From: a virus
Direction: 5' to 3' (one strand)
Virus record (IMG/VR): IMGVR_UViG_3300031857_000883
Location: 1 to 31,289 of that record
Length of the DNA: 31,289 bases
This document shows, piece after piece, positions 7,318 through 31,289 of the stretch. Position numbers and translations under genes: made by a program. Each line of letters starts with the position of its first letter. The first letter of the stretch is position 1. Below the pieces are notes generated by a model. The model ran no database searches, had not been told where the DNA came from, and saw nothing but the letters and a program-made list of their open reading frames with translations.

Positions 7318-7347
7318 CAAAATTATAACGATTTTTGATACCGCAAA
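7318..7347 (-). promoter_or_regulatory. Candidate Bacteroidota-type promoter for head/packaging operon
   Basis: On the minus strand a TTTG box (7347-7344) is followed after 18 nt by TAATTTTG (7325-7318), an exact match to the TAnnTTTG -7 element known for Bacteroidota primary sigma factors. It points into the operon that starts at 7209, leaving a leader of roughly 100 nt. A short hairpin with CCATC / GATGG arms lies in the leader. Confidence 0.6.
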
Positions 7348-7389: not shown

Positions 7390-7514
7390 GTTCCAACCGT
7401 TCCAACCAACCTTAGCAATGAAACCAAACCAATTCTAAATCAACAAAATAACGGTTGGAATGGCCGGTCCAACTTTTCCAACTTTGTGCAAAATATTGCA
7501 CACTTGGTTGGAAC
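7390..7514. repeat. GTTCCAACC / GGTTGGAAC iteron cluster (left copy)
   Basis: Two perfect tandem 9-bp units GTTCCAACC occupy 7390-7407. GGTTGGAA follows in the opposite orientation at 7453-7460, partial units (GGTCCAAC, TTTTCCAAC) lie at 7466-7482, and a full GGTTGGAAC is at 7506-7514. The same 9-mer is found in tandem in the other gene-free region at 30899-31055. Iterons of this kind usually bind a replication initiator or a regulator; which one applies here is inference. Confidence 0.8.
7485..7502. promoter_or_regulatory. 18-bp dyad operator candidate (copy 1)
   Basis: TGTGCAA-AATA-TTGCACA is a perfect 7-bp inverted repeat with a 4-nt spacer. The same arms with the same spacing occur at 19773-19790, upstream of the small-gene operon that encodes the XRE regulator. 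It is a plausible binding site for a dimeric repressor. Confidence 0.65.
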
Positions 7515-7632: not shown

Positions 7633-8028
7633 TTAAAACCATTCGGCTAAATTGGATTTTAAAAAGTAATTCTGGTAAATCCATTCTGCCTCCAATTCGG
7701 CCCAGCTGATTGCTTCTTCCTCCTCTTTTTCCAGGTCAAACATCAACCAGGCAATGTGCATGGTTTCATGCATAATTGCCAGTGCATCACGGTAATCACC
7801 AACCATTCTGAATGAATTCAAAAACAAAAATGGAAATCCATTGTCTGGCCTCAAGTTCGCCCAGCCATGAATATAAACTCCCGGTGTTCCTGGTGTCGAT
7901 GGCTCTGGATGCCGGATGCATTCATCCAGGCTTAATCCGTGCATGGCCTCAATCGAAAAAAAATCAAAAATGGATCGGCTGGATTCGCCAATCATCAAAT
8001 CATAATGTTCACGGTGTTCAACTATCAT
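7633..8028 (-). CDS. Putative zinc metallopeptidase-like protein (HETMH)
   Basis: The product is 131 aa. At residues 87-91 it has HETMH, a HExxH zinc-binding signature in a hydrophobic helix (AIMHETMHIAWLMF), and downstream acidic residues in EEAISWAELEAEWIY that could give the third ligand, a gluzincin-like layout. The N-terminal part (YDLMIGESSRSIFDFFSIEAM) is helical. I recall similar small HExxH proteins in Bacteroidota phages, with no established role. Substrate is unknown: head protein processing, an anti-host function or a purely structural zinc site are all possible. Its ATG overlaps the stop of the 41-aa gene by 4 nt, and it is the last gene before the 7210-7632 region. Confidence 0.68.
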   Translation of the reverse strand: MIVEHREHYDLMIGESSRSIFDFFSIEAMHGLSLDECIRHPEPSTPGTPGVYIHGWANLRPDNGFPFLFLNSFRMVGDYRDALAIMHETMHIAWLMFDLEKEEEEAISWAELEAEWIYQNYFLKSNLAEWF

Positions 8029-10142: not shown

Positions 10143-13043
10143 TTAAAATGGAACATAATTTCGGTCATCCGAAATTTCTACTTCAACCGCATCCGGAACG
10201 GATAACTGGCTCTCGCTCGTATCGCTCATATAACTGATTTTCCGCAACCCAAAATCATCCTTGAGCATGGTATAATTAAAGACCATTGCGGATGAATTTG
10301 ATTCCCCGAATTTCATCGATTTTTTCTCGCCAATGTAAGCCGGTGAATTTTTAAGGTAACTGCGCAGTGTATCCGAATCCATGTACCGCTGGCCTCGCTG
10401 CCGCATTTCTTTGGCATATACAGGCTGAATTTGATTCAACCGGATAAACATCATTTCTGTCAGCTGCGGAAACTGCACAATGCTTTCGGATTTGGCGGCA
10501 TCACGGCGAACCGCAATGGTCTGCAATTCTCTGAATGTAAATTGCCGATTTTCATCCAGAATTCCGGCATGGACCAGGTAGGCCATCGCCTCCCAGAATT
10601 GACTGGATTCCTCCGAATTCTGCATCATGCCGTTTTGTGCCTCCGCAATTTTTTCCAGACTGTACTGCAATTCGTTTTCCAGAAATGGAAAATTCAATTT
10701 TCCGGATAATGTCTGATAAATTGCCATCACAATGGCGCAATGCTGGCCAATCCGGCTGACATTCGTACCAACAAATCGTTTTGCATATTTCTTTTTCCAT
10801 TGCCGGTAATTGGTTGCGTAGTTTTCTTCCATTTCCGGCCGGTGCTTCAAAATCGAAATCGCAATTTGAGTAAGGGATTCATTTTGCAGCGATTTCAGAT
10901 CGCTGATAAGTTCCATGCTTTCTTCTGAAAATCCATCATTTTTGAAAAACTGCAAAAGAATAACCCTGGTAAATAGTGCCACATCAGCCACCGGCAAATG
11001 CTGGCCGGTGATCACCACGCTGGATTCAATCTGGTGGCTTACCGTGCGGTTGGATGTGTTCGACTGACTGCTGTCGGCCTTCAGATAGGCATCACGATTC
11101 CAGATTTGCTTTAGGATTTCCACCTGCTTAGTGTCCAATTCATTGTTGTATTCCTCCAGCAACACCATGCCATTCCGCACCTGACCCAATTTCCGGAACA
11201 ATGCAGCCATCGATACTGAATTGATATTTGATCCTACGGATTTGCCCTCAGTTTTGTGGAGCAATGACAAAATGGAATATGCCATGGTAGATTTCCCAGA
11301 CTCCGGTTTTCCGTACAGATAAAGCATCGGGAAAAATCCATCGGTTTTAAAGACGATATCCGAAAACATAGCCATGCAACAATACATCAATCCAATCCGG
11401 CCGTTTTCGCCATATACTTTGCAAAATAATTCGGCCCAGCTGCTGAATGCGATATTGCGCCCGACATGAATGAATTCACGCTCCGACTGATAGCGCATTC
11501 GATTGTTGCGATAAATGTCTGATAATGCCGGGAAAAAATAGTTTTTCTTTTTCAGATTCACGATTCCAAGGTTGTTGATTTCGTGAAATTTGCCATCTGA
11601 AAAAATGCCATTGGAAAATGCAAAAAAGCCATCTTCCTGTTGGCCCAATGTGCTGATTTCTTTGGCCGCCGGTGTTACCTCGTACAGCCATGATTTAACT
11701 TTAACCCATTCCCGGCGGTCAAATAGCGACCAGAAATTACCACGCTCCACATACTTGGCAAATGCATCCACGGAAACAAATGCATCGGTTGTAATGTGGT
11801 CAATTCTCCGCTCGTTTTTGATGTTTGTAAACTCGATTATCCTGGTGGTGTTTCCCTCCTCATCGGTAACCAGGTAATGTGGTTTCATCGAGAAATTGGA
11901 TTTGGCTTCAAATGTCATTTCCCCATCTCGGATTTTACCGATGTAAGTGATATTCTTCCAGCTGAGAAACCCAAATTTCCGGACAAACTCGCCGCATTCG
12001 GCTTCCTCTGATTTAGTCAATTTTACCGGCCAGCGGATGGCCAGAACATTACTGATTTGCTGGCCTGAATCATTTTCTTGTTCTTCCGAATTCACCCTAC
12101 TTTTCTCCCTACTTTTCTCCCTACTTTTCTCCGAACCAACCAATTCGGTTCGGAGAAATTTACGCATATCGCAGCCAGCCTTTTTTGCCTGGCCCAAAAA
12201 ATAACCGGGTTCCCTCCATGTAGTGGTGCGCAGACAATTATCAAATTTCAGGTCAGTTTCCTTTTGATTGTAATCCTGATTTACCTGGCTTATTTGATGA
12301 AATAATGATCGACCGGATTCTCCAAGGCTGGCCAGCGAAAATCCGATTTTCAGCCATTCATTATAACCTGATGTAAGGTCAATTGCTCGGGCCGATACCT
12401 GATCGGCGATACCACGCAAATATTCCATTTCATCAACCGGCTGGAATGGCTTGAATTGTCGAACCGATTCGATTACCTCACCGGTTTCCATATCCACCTC
12501 CATTTCTATATCAGGCAAATAAACGCTGGATGCCTCGTTTATATAAATGTTTTCATCAATGGATTCAAAACAGGCCCGGCAAACATCCTTACCAGATGCA
12601 TCCAATTCCAATCCGTACTTATGATAGAAATATTTGGCCAGCGAATTAAACGATTCCAGATGCCGGTCTGGGTCAATTTTTGCCAATGCTTTCAATCCTT
12701 CGCCTCCGGTGGAGCGGAACATCACCATAATGTAACGGTCTTCCATCAGCTGCATGGCTACGGCCTCCACATCTCCGACATTATCAAAATCCAGAGTAAT
12801 TAACCCCGAATGCTGGACCAGGCTATTTGCGTTTCTGGCTGAAAAAGTGCCGGAAAAAGTAAAATAGGAACATCGTTTTTTCAATTCCTTTTTCTTTTTT
12901 TCATCCGTTTCCACCCGAACTGGCCGGATGGTCGCATAACCTTTTCCGTTGCGGATATAATCAATTGCCCATTCCAGGCTTACGGTCTGGGTTGGTTTGG
13001 TAACCTGAATGCCACCTTCAAAAAAACTAATTTGCTGTTTCAT
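10143..13043 (-). CDS. Primase-helicase (VirE-N / PriCT-2 / P-loop ATPase)
   Basis: The 966-aa product probably starts phage DNA synthesis. Residues about 1-185 match the VirE N-terminal/BT4734-like primase fold (HSGLITLDFDNVGD with D85 and D87, then STGGEGLKAL). Residues about 208-305 look like a PriCT-2 helical domain (GYNEWLKIGFSLASLGESG). A linker holds three REKS repeats. The C-terminal part is a P-loop ATPase with Walker A GKPESGKST (588-596) and Walker B MVLLEEYNN (636-644), plus a sensor-like VVITGQHLP. It overlaps the upstream 71-aa gene by 4 nt. Alternatives such as a DUF927-type helicase do not change the replication role. Confidence 0.85.
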   Translation of the reverse strand: MKQQISFFEGGIQVTKPTQTVSLEWAIDYIRNGKGYATIRPVRVETDEKKKKELKKRCSYFTFSGTFSARNANSLVQHSGLITLDFDNVGDVEAVAMQLMEDRYIMVMFRSTGGEGLKALAKIDPDRHLESFNSLAKYFYHKYGLELDASGKDVCRACFESIDENIYINEASSVYLPDIEMEVDMETGEVIESVRQFKPFQPVDEMEYLRGIADQVSARAIDLTSGYNEWLKIGFSLASLGESGRSLFHQISQVNQDYNQKETDLKFDNCLRTTTWREPGYFLGQAKKAGCDMRKFLRTELVGSEKSREKSREKSRVNSEEQENDSGQQISNVLAIRWPVKLTKSEEAECGEFVRKFGFLSWKNITYIGKIRDGEMTFEAKSNFSMKPHYLVTDEEGNTTRIIEFTNIKNERRIDHITTDAFVSVDAFAKYVERGNFWSLFDRREWVKVKSWLYEVTPAAKEISTLGQQEDGFFAFSNGIFSDGKFHEINNLGIVNLKKKNYFFPALSDIYRNNRMRYQSEREFIHVGRNIAFSSWAELFCKVYGENGRIGLMYCCMAMFSDIVFKTDGFFPMLYLYGKPESGKSTMAYSILSLLHKTEGKSVGSNINSVSMAALFRKLGQVRNGMVLLEEYNNELDTKQVEILKQIWNRDAYLKADSSQSNTSNRTVSHQIESSVVITGQHLPVADVALFTRVILLQFFKNDGFSEESMELISDLKSLQNESLTQIAISILKHRPEMEENYATNYRQWKKKYAKRFVGTNVSRIGQHCAIVMAIYQTLSGKLNFPFLENELQYSLEKIAEAQNGMMQNSEESSQFWEAMAYLVHAGILDENRQFTFRELQTIAVRRDAAKSESIVQFPQLTEMMFIRLNQIQPVYAKEMRQRGQRYMDSDTLRSYLKNSPAYIGEKKSMKFGESNSSAMVFNYTMLKDDFGLRKISYMSDTSESQLSVPDAVEVEISDDRNYVPF
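12095..12130. repeat. Three perfect 12-bp tandem repeats within the primase-helicase gene
   Basis: The unit CCCTACTTTTCT occurs three times without mismatch. Being 12 bp it keeps the reading frame and encodes the peptide repeat (REKS)n in the linker between PriCT-2 and ATPase domains. Copy-number change would only vary linker length. Confidence 0.85.
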
Positions 13044-13383: not shown

Positions 13384-15936
13384 TTATCCATTGGCTCGGC
13401 TCTCAATTCGGGCCGCTTCTTGTTGCTGTTTTTGTGCTTGCTCATAAACCACAACCGCTGATAATTGTTTGGGGAATGCCGAAAATGCTTCATTCAATCT
13501 TCGCATTTCGGCAATCTGCGCTTGAGCCAGTGTCGCATTCACAGCGGCAGAATCGCCTCCTGGTCCAGACTTGGTTCCCAGATCAATCATACCGCCATCG
13601 GCATATTTACGGCCCTCAATCGGCGCACCGCCACGGTACAGGCTGGCATTTAATAGGGCATCAATCGTTGATTTATTATTCTGGTATGCGGTCCGGCTGA
13701 ATACAGTTAAAAATTCACCCCTTTCCACCTCTCCCAAGTGCTGGCCATTGCGGCCATCCATCAGGTGAATGCCTCCTTCGCTATGTCGGCCTCCGCTGGA
13801 TAGGTAACCGCCCTTTGGAGTGATCATTCCACCTTGTTCAAATGTAACTCCGGCGGCTTTAGTAACGGCAAAGGTTGTTCTGGTGGCGGCAAATGCTGAC
13901 TGAATGGCCGCAAATGCCGGACCCCATCCAGGAATCACTGCATTTAGCGCATTCATATTGGCATTTGACCAGATGCCCTGAATTTCTTTGGTCCCTGATA
14001 ATATCAATTCGGCGATGGTCAATGCTTTAATAATGCCAGAAAATTTCCGGCGATTGGTTTCATCCTCGGCCAATGCTGCTTTAATACCAGTAACTGTGTT
14101 TTTAAACAAATCCAATCGGGCCGCATTTAATTGTTCCTCGGTGGCTTTGGTCTTTTTAGCCAATTCAATCCGTTTGTTCGCCTGATCAACATCCAGTTTT
14201 TCGATGGCCAATCCGATTTTTTTGGCCTCGGTGGTTTCACCCTGCCCGGCATCCACCAGTAATTTGAGCCTCCGTTCCAACCCGGCTTTTTTAACCTGAT
14301 ATTGTTTTTCTTCCTTAATGGTTTCGGCGGCAATTAATCTATCAATGGCGATATTTTGTCGCTCCTCATCCAGCGCAATTTGTTCTTCCGCTTCCTTCAT
14401 GGCCTGTTCCTGGTCCGCTTTTTTCTTATCCTCTTTTGCTTTTTCCCTCGCCTTCTGATTTTCGGCTAACAAAGCATCCTGTTTTTTCTCTAATTCAGCC
14501 ACCAGTTCTACCCTTAATATACCTTGGGCCATCAATTGATTTAATTCACGCTCAAATGCCAGCATAATTTCGGCATCTTTTCGCTCAAATTCATCCTGAA
14601 TGTTGGCCACCTTGGCATCGGTTAGTTTTTGCGCATAGGTTAGTTCTGCCTTATCTAATGCCTCTTGCTTTCTTCTCGCTTCCTCCGCTGCTTTTTCCCG
14701 TTGTTGCTGGCGTTTTTCGGCCGCCTGTCTGGCCTGTTCGGCTGCTTTTTCTCTGGCGGCCTGATCTTTGGCCTCTTTATCTCTTATTTCATCCAATAAT
14801 GCATTTTGTCGATTGCTGATTTTCTCCTGTAATGTCAGTGATTCGCCTTGCAACCTAATTTCATCCGCTTTTGCTTGTTTAAATTTCCGGTATGCGGCAT
14901 CGTATTCGGCTGATGTCTTTTTAATTTGATCTAATTCAATGGCGGCAATTTTTGTTTTTTGCGCCGCAATTCTCAAATCATTATCCAATCGCTCCTTTTC
15001 CAACCGGCTGGCCTCCCGAAGTAATGCCAATCGGTCCAAATCTGTTTTGCTTCGGTCTTTAGATTGTACTATTAGTTTGGCAATGCTGGTTTCCAGCTGC
15101 GCATTTCGAACCAAATTATTGGATTCATCCTCATCCAATTGGTCATTCAATTGCGCCAATTGGCGGCCAACCTCGATGGCATTCTGCAATTCGTCGGCCA
15201 TTACTTTTGCCTTCTCCGATGCATTTTCAACACCAGTGGATAATTGAATAATTCCATCGTTCAATTTGGTCAGGTCAGCATTCATAATGGCATCAATGAT
15301 TACTCCGAATGCCTTAATTCGATTCATCAGGTTTTCCATGATGAAATTTCCAAGTTCTTTGGCCGCCTCTAATGGATTTGTAAACATTTTGACGATAAAT
15401 CCACCGACTTCAGCCACCACCTGAGTTAATGCCTCCATGACAATGCCCAACCCTTTCATGGCGGCCTCAAGCGCAATGGCTCCTTCCTCCGTTTTTGTGA
15501 AATAGGTAAATAAGGCAGTAACAGCCAGCACCAGTGCGCCTATACCAGTGGCGGCAATGGCCACTCTCATTACTCCCATCGCAGCCACATTGGCCATAAT
15601 TGCACCACGCATGGCTACAAATGATGCCTGGAATCCTTGAATCATTTGTCCGACCGGAGTCATAGCCAGCAAATCGGCCCTTGCCTGCTTCGCAGTATCG
15701 CCAACATTGGCCATCTGTTGGCGCACTTGTCTGGTTGCATCTCTGACCTCATTCAATCGGTTGGTTGCAGTACCTAATTCTTTGGCTTTATCAGCAAATT
15801 CCTGACTTCCAACCGGCAGCATTCGCATTTCTCGGTTTAGATTTTTCACATCATTTTCGAGTTCACGAATTGTTTTGGCCGCCACCTCGCCGTTTATTTT
15901 CAACCCAATCTGGGTTTCAGTCTTATTTCCAGCCAT
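13384..15936 (-). CDS. Tail tape measure protein
   Basis: The 850-aa product sets tail length and is probably released with DNA during infection. Its start (KTETQIGLKINGEVAAKTIRELENDVKNLNREMR) is typical of tape measures. A hydrophobic segment around residues 110-145 (MGVMRVAIAATGIGALVLAVTALFTYF) fits a membrane-inserting region. Residues about 230-630 are a long charged coiled coil rich in Ala/Lys/Glu/Gln. The C-terminal part has Gly-rich turns (FEQGGMITPKGGYLSSGGRHSEGGIHLM) common in these proteins. The neck-like gene lies 4 nt upstream. It is unusual that it is separated from the other tail genes by the accessory block at 16.6-19.7 kb. Confidence 0.88.
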   Translation of the reverse strand: MAGNKTETQIGLKINGEVAAKTIRELENDVKNLNREMRMLPVGSQEFADKAKELGTATNRLNEVRDATRQVRQQMANVGDTAKQARADLLAMTPVGQMIQGFQASFVAMRGAIMANVAAMGVMRVAIAATGIGALVLAVTALFTYFTKTEEGAIALEAAMKGLGIVMEALTQVVAEVGGFIVKMFTNPLEAAKELGNFIMENLMNRIKAFGVIIDAIMNADLTKLNDGIIQLSTGVENASEKAKVMADELQNAIEVGRQLAQLNDQLDEDESNNLVRNAQLETSIAKLIVQSKDRSKTDLDRLALLREASRLEKERLDNDLRIAAQKTKIAAIELDQIKKTSAEYDAAYRKFKQAKADEIRLQGESLTLQEKISNRQNALLDEIRDKEAKDQAAREKAAEQARQAAEKRQQQREKAAEEARRKQEALDKAELTYAQKLTDAKVANIQDEFERKDAEIMLAFERELNQLMAQGILRVELVAELEKKQDALLAENQKAREKAKEDKKKADQEQAMKEAEEQIALDEERQNIAIDRLIAAETIKEEKQYQVKKAGLERRLKLLVDAGQGETTEAKKIGLAIEKLDVDQANKRIELAKKTKATEEQLNAARLDLFKNTVTGIKAALAEDETNRRKFSGIIKALTIAELILSGTKEIQGIWSNANMNALNAVIPGWGPAFAAIQSAFAATRTTFAVTKAAGVTFEQGGMITPKGGYLSSGGRHSEGGIHLMDGRNGQHLGEVERGEFLTVFSRTAYQNNKSTIDALLNASLYRGGAPIEGRKYADGGMIDLGTKSGPGGDSAAVNATLAQAQIAEMRRLNEAFSAFPKQLSAVVVYEQAQKQQQEAARIESRANG

Positions 15937-17050: not shown

Positions 17051-17268
17051 TTTAATTCGATTTGTTTTGATTCAGGAATGAAATTTGTTCCATTATTTCC
17101 GGTGAGCCTCATATAATCCACTTCAACCTTGGCTGAATTAATAACTACCTGGGCCACCTCGGCCACCGCTTTGGCTCGTTCCAAATCCATCGGATTATCC
17201 GGGTCGGTTAATGCTTCCAGTGTTGCGAACAGATGGTTTCGCAAATCTTCAATCTTATTTCTTGGCAT
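17047..17268 (-). CDS. Conserved small phage protein
   Basis: The 73-aa product MPRNKIEDLRNHLFATLEALTDPDNPMDLERAKAVAEVAQVVINSAKVEVDYMRLTG strongly resembles a small helical protein conserved across phages of many bacteria, often next to HNH or regulatory genes. Its molecular role is not established to my knowledge. It follows the HNH-like gene with a 14-nt overlap and overlaps the membrane-protein start by 4 nt. Confidence 0.75.
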   Translation of the reverse strand: MPRNKIEDLRNHLFATLEALTDPDNPMDLERAKAVAEVAQVVINSAKVEVDYMRLTGNNGTNFIPESKQIELK

Positions 17269-17872
17269 CGATTTGTTTGTTTATTTTATTTTTCAACTTT
17301 ATAACCTCCTGAATTTCTACCGGCCAATTGTGCCTGGTGTTCAACTTCATTAAATCTGCCCGGCTGATTAACATCAGATTTTTTACCGTGCAATTCAACG
17401 GATTCCCATCAATAAATTTCAGCACCTTATCTTTTGGAACCAGACCATGCTCTAATTCCCAGACCAATTTGTGTTTTTGAACATATTTACCGGCCCGGAT
17501 GCGGACCTCAATATATCCATCTTTGGAAATCCGTTCATGGCCAGCTGGTTTTGTATTATGCGGCTGATGGCCTTTCGGGAAAAAAGTCGCTTTTACCTTT
17601 TCCTTTACCGAATCAGGCATTTTTTTTCCTTTGTTCCAGGATACTTGACCTTTTTTGAATTGATAACGCTTCCCGTTATGCTGTAATTTCTGCGCCAGCT
17701 GCATCGTTACTTCAAATATGTAAGCCGGATCCTTTTTTAATCCCAATCTGGTGGCCCTCTGCGCCACCGATGAATAGGATTTTCCCAGTTTATCACAAAT
17801 GTCTATGGTTGGAGTTTTTGAAAATAACTCCATCAATAATTCATCTTGTTCACTTGTCCAAAATTCTCTCAT
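17255..17872 (-). CDS. HNH-type protein with Myb/SANT-like N-terminus (degenerate HNH)
   Basis: The 205-aa product has an N-terminal DNA-binding helix-turn-helix of Myb/GcrA type (FWTSEQDELLMELFSKTPTIDICDKLG, residues 4-45). A NUMOD3-like motif QVSWNKGKKM (76-85) follows, then an HNH-type fold: GYIEVRIRAGKYVQKHKLVWELEHG (119-143) and VLKFIDGNPLNCTVKNLMLIS (150-170). The His normally seen in V-x-H-x-D-G is replaced by Phe (F153), so the catalytic base may be lost. I recall a widespread subfamily with the same substitution. It could be a site-specific DNA-binding protein or a weak nuclease. It overlaps the upstream gene by 23 nt. Confidence 0.75.
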   Translation of the reverse strand: MREFWTSEQDELLMELFSKTPTIDICDKLGKSYSSVAQRATRLGLKKDPAYIFEVTMQLAQKLQHNGKRYQFKKGQVSWNKGKKMPDSVKEKVKATFFPKGHQPHNTKPAGHERISKDGYIEVRIRAGKYVQKHKLVWELEHGLVPKDKVLKFIDGNPLNCTVKNLMLISRADLMKLNTRHNWPVEIQEVIKLKNKINKQIDAKK

Positions 17873-29211: not shown

Positions 29212-30478
29212 TTGACATTACGGTTTGTTGCCCTGTCGGGTTGTTATCCAATGTAGTCAATTCAAAATCTTTTGGCGCAATAAATAAATCGGGAGCGAAT
29301 CCCATCAGTTTCATTGCGATTTTTATCGGCTGCAAAATCAGTGTGCGTGGAATCGGAGTCCGCAGTGCGGTGTGCAATTGTGCCGCCACTCGCATTTCGC
29401 TGGCCGAACCACCCAATTTACCACCAGTGTCCACATTCGCCAGACCCGGATGGATACCAACTGAACTGGCCGCATTCACCCGAAAATCTTTACTCAGTGC
29501 CAAATACTGTTCATCGGTCTTAACTTGTTGCAGCGGAACAATATCGAATCCAGGCAATGGCTTATTCGATACCGGGTCAATAAAAAATTTAGTCATTACG
29601 GTCTTGTTCACATTGTTCACTCCGCACAGCTGGTCATCCATTGCATCTTGTAAATCTCGCCATGCCTTATCTTTTTCTTCCTGGCTCCCGAATTGATCCA
29701 GGTATAAACTCGGAACCTTGACATGATACTTTACATTGTAACCATTGTCAATACCGGACCCATGAAATTTTGGAACCCGGTTCAGAACCTTGATTGTTTC
29801 CAGTGCGCCATACCAAATTGGTAATCCATAAATAGCCTGACCGGAGGTCGGCATTTTGGCATGGTAAATAAATTGTGGGTAATCATTCTGGATACCGGTG
29901 TAGTACCTTGGTAATGCCTGAACCTTTATTTTATTGTCATCAACTATTCTTTCGCCGAAAAGTAGATATTGATTAATCTGGCCGGTGGCTTCATCGACTT
30001 GTTCGGCTCTGACTGTGGACCAATCATAAATATTCATTTCGACCGGTTGGCCGGAAATATTCAAATTGAATCCGGTGTACACATTGGCGCCGGTTACAAA
30101 TTGAATGCAAGCCTTTAGCCAATAATCAGAAATATGAACCTGATCCATCCAGTCTTCAACTGCTGAATCCATAACCGGTTCAATCACTTCTTTAGCCGGG
30201 AGCATTGCGGTTCCAGGTATAATCCGGCGGCGATAAACTCCCAATCCAGCACCGTGTAAAAATGCCGCCTCCGTATGAAGCAGCTGCGGCATGAAATCAT
30301 TTTCCCAAATGGCAGTCAAAATTTCATCCGGCAGTTTATCATCGGCTCCAAACTTTTCGAATTTAAAACCATCCAGATTTCCCTGGTTTTTAGTTCGCAG
30401 AACATTTTTGGTGTTTGTCAGTGTCATAACCGACCGGCTTTTATTGAGGAAAGCCACCAGGTGTTTATCATTTTTCAT
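29198..30478 (-). CDS. Portal protein
   Basis: From the ATG at 30478 the product is 426 aa; a TTG at 30493 is the longer alternative. It is the dodecameric channel at the prohead vertex through which DNA enters. Features include the N-terminal region (ADDKLPDEILTAIWENDFMPQLLHTEAAFLHGAGLGVYRRR), a typical clip/stem-like segment (YGLPIWYGALETIKVLNRVPKFHGSGIDNG) and a C-terminal helical part with ASSVGIHPGLANVDTGGKLGGSASEMR, characteristic of many portals. The overlap with the upstream 115-aa gene is 11 nt. It is followed by a connector-like gene. Confidence 0.8.
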   Translation of the reverse strand: MKNDKHLVAFLNKSRSVMTLTNTKNVLRTKNQGNLDGFKFEKFGADDKLPDEILTAIWENDFMPQLLHTEAAFLHGAGLGVYRRRIIPGTAMLPAKEVIEPVMDSAVEDWMDQVHISDYWLKACIQFVTGANVYTGFNLNISGQPVEMNIYDWSTVRAEQVDEATGQINQYLLFGERIVDDNKIKVQALPRYYTGIQNDYPQFIYHAKMPTSGQAIYGLPIWYGALETIKVLNRVPKFHGSGIDNGYNVKYHVKVPSLYLDQFGSQEEKDKAWRDLQDAMDDQLCGVNNVNKTVMTKFFIDPVSNKPLPGFDIVPLQQVKTDEQYLALSKDFRVNAASSVGIHPGLANVDTGGKLGGSASEMRVAAQLHTALRTPIPRTLILQPIKIAMKLMGFAPDLFIAPKDFELTTLDNNPTGQQTVMSNVTI

Positions 30479-30815
30479 TTGACCAGCGCACAAGCATTTT
30501 GTTAAAACTCATTAAAAGTGCAATTTTTATTTCAAATGGCCTTTTCTTTTCCACATCATAAAGCAAAAGGTTATGCTGCCGGTTGATATTGTGGCCCCAA
30601 CTTTTTTTTTCGACTTGGTTCCGACTTAGTTCCGACTTGGTTCCGACTTGGTTACCTTTTAAATTTTCCAATGCTGATTTTTTAACCGGAGTTCCCAACC
30701 GGACCCTTGGCTTTATCACTCGCTCACTTCCATCCTTGCGGATAAATTCAATCTCGAATTCATCCATGCAAGTATTGATCATGGTCAGTGCCTGGTTAAT
30801 TCTCAATTCAGCCAT
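30468..30815 (-). CDS. Small hypothetical protein with tandem repeat
   Basis: The 115-aa product is the first gene of the portal-tail operon. The N-terminus (MAELRINQALTMINTCMDEFEIEFIRKDGSERVIKPRVRLG) is followed by a Lys/Ser/Gln-rich linker encoded by 11-bp tandem repeats (30610-30653), then a basic helical C-terminus. I do not recognise the family. Portal-adjacent position suggests a small head or packaging protein, but nothing else supports that. Confidence 0.55.
   Translation of the reverse strand: MAELRINQALTMINTCMDEFEIEFIRKDGSERVIKPRVRLGTPVKKSALENLKGNQVGTKSELSRNQVEKKSWGHNINRQHNLLLYDVEKKRPFEIKIALLMSFNKMLVRWSNEK
30610..30653. repeat. 11-bp tandem repeat (CCGACTTGGTT, about four units)
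   Basis: Four consecutive units, the first lacking one base and the second carrying G to A, run through the 115-aa gene. The unit of 11 bp is close to one helical turn and not a multiple of three, so each unit is read in a different frame. Slippage by one unit would shift the reading frame. Confidence 0.8.
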
Positions 30816-30898: not shown

Positions 30899-31055
30899 GG
30901 TTGGAACTGGTTGGCACAGGTTGGAATGGTGTTCCAACCGGAAAATCCGGGTTCCGGACATGGTCTGCCGTGCATAACTGCCTCATATATATATTATTAT
31001 CATAAGGAAAAAATATATATATATGACTGGTTGGAGCGGTTGGAACGGTTGGAAC
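30899..31055. repeat. GGTTGGAAC iteron cluster (right copy)
   Basis: GGTTGGAAC is at 30899-30907, GGTTGGCAC at 30909-30917, an inverted pair GGTTGGAA-N5-TTCCAACC at 30919-30939 and three abutting 9-bp units (GGTTGGAGC, GGTTGGAAC, GGTTGGAAC) at 31029-31055. An AT tract lies between the two groups. The same unit occurs at 7390-7514 in the other intergenic region. Confidence 0.85.
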
Positions 31056-31155: not shown

Positions 31156-31289
31156 TAAAATTGTACTATTTTTAGAATAAATATAATTATTCCTTTAAAA
31201 CACAAAGCAAAACCACAATGAATCCGGCATCCACCAGAAAAATTGGTTTAGCAAGTAGATAAATATGACCCCATGGGCCGGATGAAAAC

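Follow-up and report, generated by a model that had tools for sequence, protein, structure and literature searches.

Phage P4 carries two separate clusters of one repeat, ori and crr, and crr serves as an accessory cis site for ori. The P4 alpha protein combines primase, helicase and winged-helix iteron binding in a single protein (PMC4234260). SaPI Rep recognizes iterons, and SCCmec Cch2 direct repeats, through a C-terminal domain (PMC7581432). The Rep proteins of SaPIbov1 and SaPI5 (PriRep1) belong to a class of self-loading hexameric helicases whose iterons lie beside an AT-rich tract.

We analyzed a phage of roughly 31 kb with a probable Bacteroidetes host; the window is all 31,289 nt of IMG/VR record IMGVR_UViG_3300031857_000883. 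Judged from sequence comparison and a structural model, SaPI-Rep replicons are its closest relatives in kind. The phage encodes a primase-helicase that appears to belong to the same self-loading class and whose predicted fold agrees with that of SaPIbov1 Rep (8tch) and more weakly with that of PriRep1 (7pds). The iterons of the phage also lie beside an AT-rich tract. The phage differs from the SaPIs in having two iteron clusters, one of them near a genome end, and a proposed origin that is not directly downstream of the helicase gene. Because this last feature sets it apart, we regard the system as a variant of the SaPI-Rep replicons. SCCmec Cch (5dgk) is the best structural match to the phage helicase, but Cch2 has as its sites three AAGTG repeats immediately behind the gene. 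The window resembles P4 in carrying one iteron in two separate clusters, whereas P4 differs in its Toprim-type primase domain and in its repeat. The C-terminal helicase is also homologous (25-27% identity) to those of the Duneviridae Cellulophaga phage Ingeline and Flavobacterium phage 1H. In Ingeline, which also has a homologous portal, repeats of the GTTCCAAC type surround an AT-rich stretch downstream of the primase, but only one cluster was found in this phage and none near the genome ends. No iteron cluster was found in phage 1H.

Two clusters of one iteron

A preliminary description of this DNA reported GGTTGGAAC-type repeats in two gene-free regions and saw no comparable cluster elsewhere, and both statements held in a whole-window scan allowing at most one mismatch. 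The scan found 20 copies of GGTTGGAAC, compared to 7.2 expected from dinucleotide shuffles (mean 7.2, sd 2.9, maximum 15). Eleven of these 20 copies fall in two gaps outside the listed genes: seven at 30899-31055 (six on the plus strand and one on the minus strand) and four at 7390-7514 (two on each strand), which we term clusters A and B. The other nine are isolated and scattered, close to the chance level of 7.2, and include an exact GGTTGGAAC at 14274 within the tape-measure gene. Coding DNA carries the unit at about chance frequency and not at the frequency of the gaps, a difference on which the preliminary description had staked its reading. No report of the GGTTGGAAC iteron was found in the open-access library searched, where the best-ranked 20 of 174 papers containing the string concern other subjects, judged by their titles. 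The preliminary description also proposed a check of cumulative GC skew. The skew declines steadily along the whole window because all genes are on the minus strand, so this trend says nothing about an origin.

Cluster A contains seven units with at most one mismatch (30899-31055). Three direct iterons with 10-bp spacing (GGTTGGAAC, GGTTGGCAC and GGTTGGAAT; 30899-30927, plus strand) are followed by a single inverted iteron (30931-30939, minus strand). Next comes a motif that is conserved in alignment, GAGGCAGTTATGCAC (30970-30984, minus strand; GAGNNAGTTACGCAC in relatives), which adjoins an AT-rich tract at about 30985-31024. The motif is the string most like a DnaA box in cluster A, but agrees with it at 8/9 positions only. 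Three more direct iterons, with 9-bp spacing, lie on the other side of the tract (31029-31055, plus strand). Thus, the right cluster does flank an AT tract as originally described. The tract is 93% AT over 40 bp, the highest value among all 40-bp windows of the genome, and we propose that it is an unwinding element. With the genes written on the plus strand, cluster A reads "−−−[AT]+−−−", a layout with iterons on both flanks of the tract that is common to the origins of other primase-helicase elements. These features give good support, at the level of sequence, to cluster A as an origin for a phage-encoded initiator.

Cluster B (7390-7514) begins with two abutting exact iterons (7390-7407, minus strand), followed by an iteron of the form GGTTGGAAT (7453-7461, plus strand) and two degenerate units AGTTGGAAAAGTTGGAC (7468-7483, minus strand), which are invariant in six genomes except near the last base. 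A dyad GTGCAAAATATTGCAC (7486-7501), whose arms are kept in six genomes, and an exact iteron (7506-7514, plus strand) complete the cluster. Its layout with genes on the plus strand is "−−[75% AT]++", plus the dyad and the two degenerate units, and no AT-rich tract was found within it (65-75% AT). The cluster lies about 2.6 kb downstream of the primase-helicase gene and about 7.5 kb from the inferred cos site. One of two possibilities put forward for the clusters was that they are paired replication origins. The right cluster is retained here as a probable origin, but not as one of an equal pair, given that it alone has an AT tract. Cluster B is probably a remnant or a cis element, in either case a second site. 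The neighboring gene at 7633-8028 encodes a 131-aa protein with an HExxH-type string (MHETMHIAW) and no Pfam or PHROG match.

The left cluster had also been described as lying beside a promoter and a dyad. The dyad is GTGCAAAATATTGCAC, and the head operon is preceded by a promoter-like TAnnTTTG site (7318-7325, minus strand), which is a consensus match only. These elements bear on the possibility that both clusters are operators through which one phage regulator controls the portal/tail and head operons, with no role in replication. Each of these operons does have a cluster upstream of its first gene. Cluster B is followed by the TAnnTTTG site, and in relatives a conserved string resembling TTGTCCTAAA comes after cluster A. 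However, TAnnTTTG occurs 17 times on the same strand, so a single match carries little weight. The AT tract and origin layout of cluster A also argue against operators, as does the recurrence of such clusters downstream of primase-helicase genes in unrelated genomes, and a more distant relative (G005, below) keeps related operons without the clusters. We consider it unlikely that the clusters are operators and nothing else. The part of the operator proposal that stands is the position of the left cluster upstream of the promoter-like site and the head operon, and cluster B is possibly an operator as well, whereas the right cluster is favored as an origin.

The primase-helicase and iterons beside helicase genes elsewhere

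The likely initiator, as judged from sequence and a structural model, is a primase-helicase of 966 aa (10143-13043, minus strand) with BT4734-like_N and PriCT_2 domains. A single-sequence fold of the whole protein (pLDDT 31) was set aside. Residues 352-966 were modeled with 39 aligned homologues, giving a mean pLDDT of 85 and a predicted D5/SaPI-Rep-like AAA+ helicase fold with a C-terminal winged helix at residues 869-923 (10275-10439, minus strand), the proposed iteron-binding domain. The best PDB matches of this model were SCCmec Cch (5dgk, E 3e-13) and SaPIbov1 Rep (8tch, E 1e-12), with a target TM of 0.65, followed by poxvirus E5 and PriRep1; amino-acid identity within the structural match is only about 10%. 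A PDB sequence search with the full primase-helicase gave no match. Rep-family initiators of the RepA/TrfA type found in iteron plasmids had no match among the window proteins scanned, which were a subset of those listed.

Homologues of the primase-helicase are associated with iteron clusters across many phages. Within 6.5 kb downstream, 30 of 40 homologues have six or more units clustered on both strands, compared to 0/40 for shuffled sequences and 0/19 for upstream stretches; four of the 40 have no cluster of at least five units in the 6.5 kb downstream. The units often take the form TGTWGnAC, such as TGTTGGAAC, and a "−− [AT-rich] ++" layout is shared by most of the related origins examined. 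Of the protein regions compared, the winged helix gave the strongest correlation with unit similarity (Mantel rho 0.33, reached in 0/2000 permutations), a value that still includes shared ancestry, and other regions correlate less.

We then scanned viral and genome contigs with 18-mers for GGTTGGAAC-unit loci, counting those in which a 300-bp stretch contains five or more units and both strands are represented, and excluding the window's own relatives. About eight distinct elements among these two-strand loci have a VapE-family (PF05272) helicase gene adjoining the cluster, and one further locus (L104) has a D5-type gene. The sole exception is a two-strand GGTTGGAAC cluster in a Deltaproteobacteria MAG (L090, 3700-3877) with no helicase gene in the 8 kb of locus sequence covered. 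At one VapE locus (L098), unlike the others, the cluster overlaps the 3' part of the open frame. Whole contigs of the viral loci share no detectable protein with the window. A gapped pattern scan of viral contigs returned G014 only. In a survey of VapE genes from three phyla, made without a shuffle control, many but not all had their own repeat family just downstream. Profile comparison gave no match between VapE C-terminal regions and the window protein, and the helicase parts matched weakly in the Walker A region only. In the absence of detectable C-terminal homology, the 9-mer shared with VapE elements would reflect either convergence or very remote kinship. Many 18-mer matches were set aside because they form tandem arrays on one strand or isolated pairs, and the stretch covered contains no VapE gene. 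The one-strand tandem GGTTGGAAC arrays at L094, L107, L065 (G018) and L071-L073 (G020) also lack a VapE gene in the stretch covered, are minisatellite-like and appear to be unrelated.

The preliminary description named both the primase-helicase and a 71-aa basic protein as candidate iteron binders. We favor the primase-helicase on the basis of its association with clusters and its SaPI-Rep-like model, and do not favor the 71-aa protein. In principle, the iterons could form an origin recognized by a separate protein that recruits the primase-helicase, whether the 71-aa protein, a different small protein of the phage or one from the host. Iteron origins of this kind exist, as with RepC of RSF1010 (PMC4234260), and the 71-aa gene is conserved directly upstream of the primase-helicase gene. 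On the other hand, G005 has a homologue of the 71-aa protein without GGTTGGAAC iterons, and the unrelated VapE-type elements carry GGTTGGAAC with no homologue of any window protein, the 71-aa protein included. The helicase also has a predicted winged helix of its own within a SaPI-Rep-like fold, which makes a separate recognition protein quite improbable. Cluster A is best read, from its sequence, as most likely the origin, which the phage's primase-helicase would itself bind and melt.

Relatives of the phage and the inferred cos site

The window genes considered run from portal through large terminase, all on the minus strand. Four close relatives are available as whole genomes (G001-G004), with portal proteins about 90% identical at the amino-acid level and DNA about 74% identical. 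Loss of the clusters from close relatives would have weighed against the preliminary description, but both clusters are kept in all four. The number, order and orientation of units are the same and the spacing is near-identical, while the flanks diverge; some single units in these relatives fall below the one-mismatch cut-off. A fifth, partial relative (L045) spans only cluster B, which is also kept.

Several contigs in this group stop at the same place. The relatives G003 and G004 have end overlaps of 127 and 123 bp, as in circular assemblies, and run across the terminase-portal junction (...AAAG GGCGCCCCCGCT GT...). The window contig lacks the 12 nt between its ends, which are GGCGCCCCCGCT in the circular relatives. 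The window and G002 stop at the borders of this stretch on both sides, as do G001 at its start and L045 at its end. That six ends from four contigs coincide in this way indicates physical genome ends, and we infer that GGCGCCCCCGCT is a 12-nt cos site. The absence of these 12 nt could be explained if they formed a 3' overhang that was removed in library preparation. Position 31289 of the window is thus the inferred right cos end, 234 bp from the start of cluster A, and the left contig end (1-66, minus strand) lies on the other side. Near the right end, the sequences of G001 and the window differ too much for alignment to fix the exact base, but the distance from the right end to the first iteron is equal in both. 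In the Polaribacter phage Leef, 3' cos ends were predicted by PhageTerm (PMC8776804). The Leef portal is a distant homologue of the window portal.

In five genomes, the inferred cos cut and the first base of cluster A are 230-234 bp apart. This distance would suit a cosB-like packaging signal bound by the terminase small subunit. However, related TerS and TerL are present in the more distant relatives G005, G006, G007 and the sister phage G727, and their terminase-portal gap contains a cos-like motif (the full GGGCGCC in G006, G007 and G727) but no iterons. Moreover, cluster B lies far from cos, and GGTTGGAAC marks sites beside helicase genes elsewhere. A packaging signal is highly improbable, and we dropped the cosB-like site because the iterons are not retained with cos and the terminase genes in these four phages. 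Unusually, cluster A, the best-formed of the proposed origins, lies about 230 bases from an apparent physical genome end. It is about 10 kb from the primase-helicase gene, across the genome ends.

More distant relatives bear on how this arrangement arose. The primase of G727 is about 44% identical to that of the window, and its sole origin of this type, with the unit TGTAGGTCG and an AT tract, is at the site of cluster B. The TerS, TerL, portal and capsid genes of G005 are related to those of the window, but this phage has neither GGTTGGAAC cluster and no detectable primase homologue; it carries its own repeats, TTTGGACCG, 3' of helicase-region genes, which were named helicase-like by eye from sequence. 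Given the single origin of G727 at the cluster B site and the lack of clusters in G005, cluster A looks like an origin that was gained or moved next to cos. By comparison with G727, cluster B would mark the older origin site. Cluster B is still conserved and so is probably functional, be it as an accessory cis site, as a minor origin or as an operator.

An integrase-like and a repressor-like gene were also recognized by eye in G005. Similar copies of three adjacent genes lie near both ends of the G005 contig (L040/L041), which may reflect assembly redundancy or a duplication.

Proposed mechanism

Together, the sequence comparisons and the model make it very probable that cluster A is a SaPI-Rep-type origin used by the primase-helicase, and that cluster B is bound by the same protein at the site of an ancestral origin. 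The C-terminal winged helix would bind the iterons on both sides of the cluster A tract, allowing the primase-helicase to assemble there, melt the AT tract and load itself as the replicative helicase, while its N-terminal primase domain would make primers. The same protein would bind cluster B, where the ancestral origin would have lain. With its AT tract apparently lost, cluster B would now most likely act as an accessory cis site, or else as a minor second origin.

A broader proposal is that the initiator sites were moved or duplicated to about 230 bp from cos, and that one primase-helicase binds both there and upstream of the head operon, tying the start of replication to late transcription or packaging. 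In this proposal GGTTGGAAC would be a recognition word common to several helicase families whose C-terminal domains show no detectable kinship. We put this forward tentatively and regard it as doubtful in its full form. If the origin does adjoin cos, the question arises of how replication and packaging share one genome end.

For this group of Bacteroidetes phages and related ones, the analysis proposes where replication starts and which protein starts it. It also suggests a rule for finding other origins, namely to look downstream of a primase-helicase gene for repeats clustered on both strands next to an AT-rich tract. One word found across separate helicase families, along with units that track the winged helix, provides a data set on how initiators read DNA.

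Two other features of the window are recorded here. The small genes include one for an HNH endonuclease (17255-17872; PF13392, E 3e-12), a possible homing or packaging nuclease. A gene for a 115-aa protein (30468-30815) contains four 11-bp tandem repeats (30608-30651); the protein is longer than those of relatives (105-109 aa), with the extra residues at the region of the 11-bp repeats.
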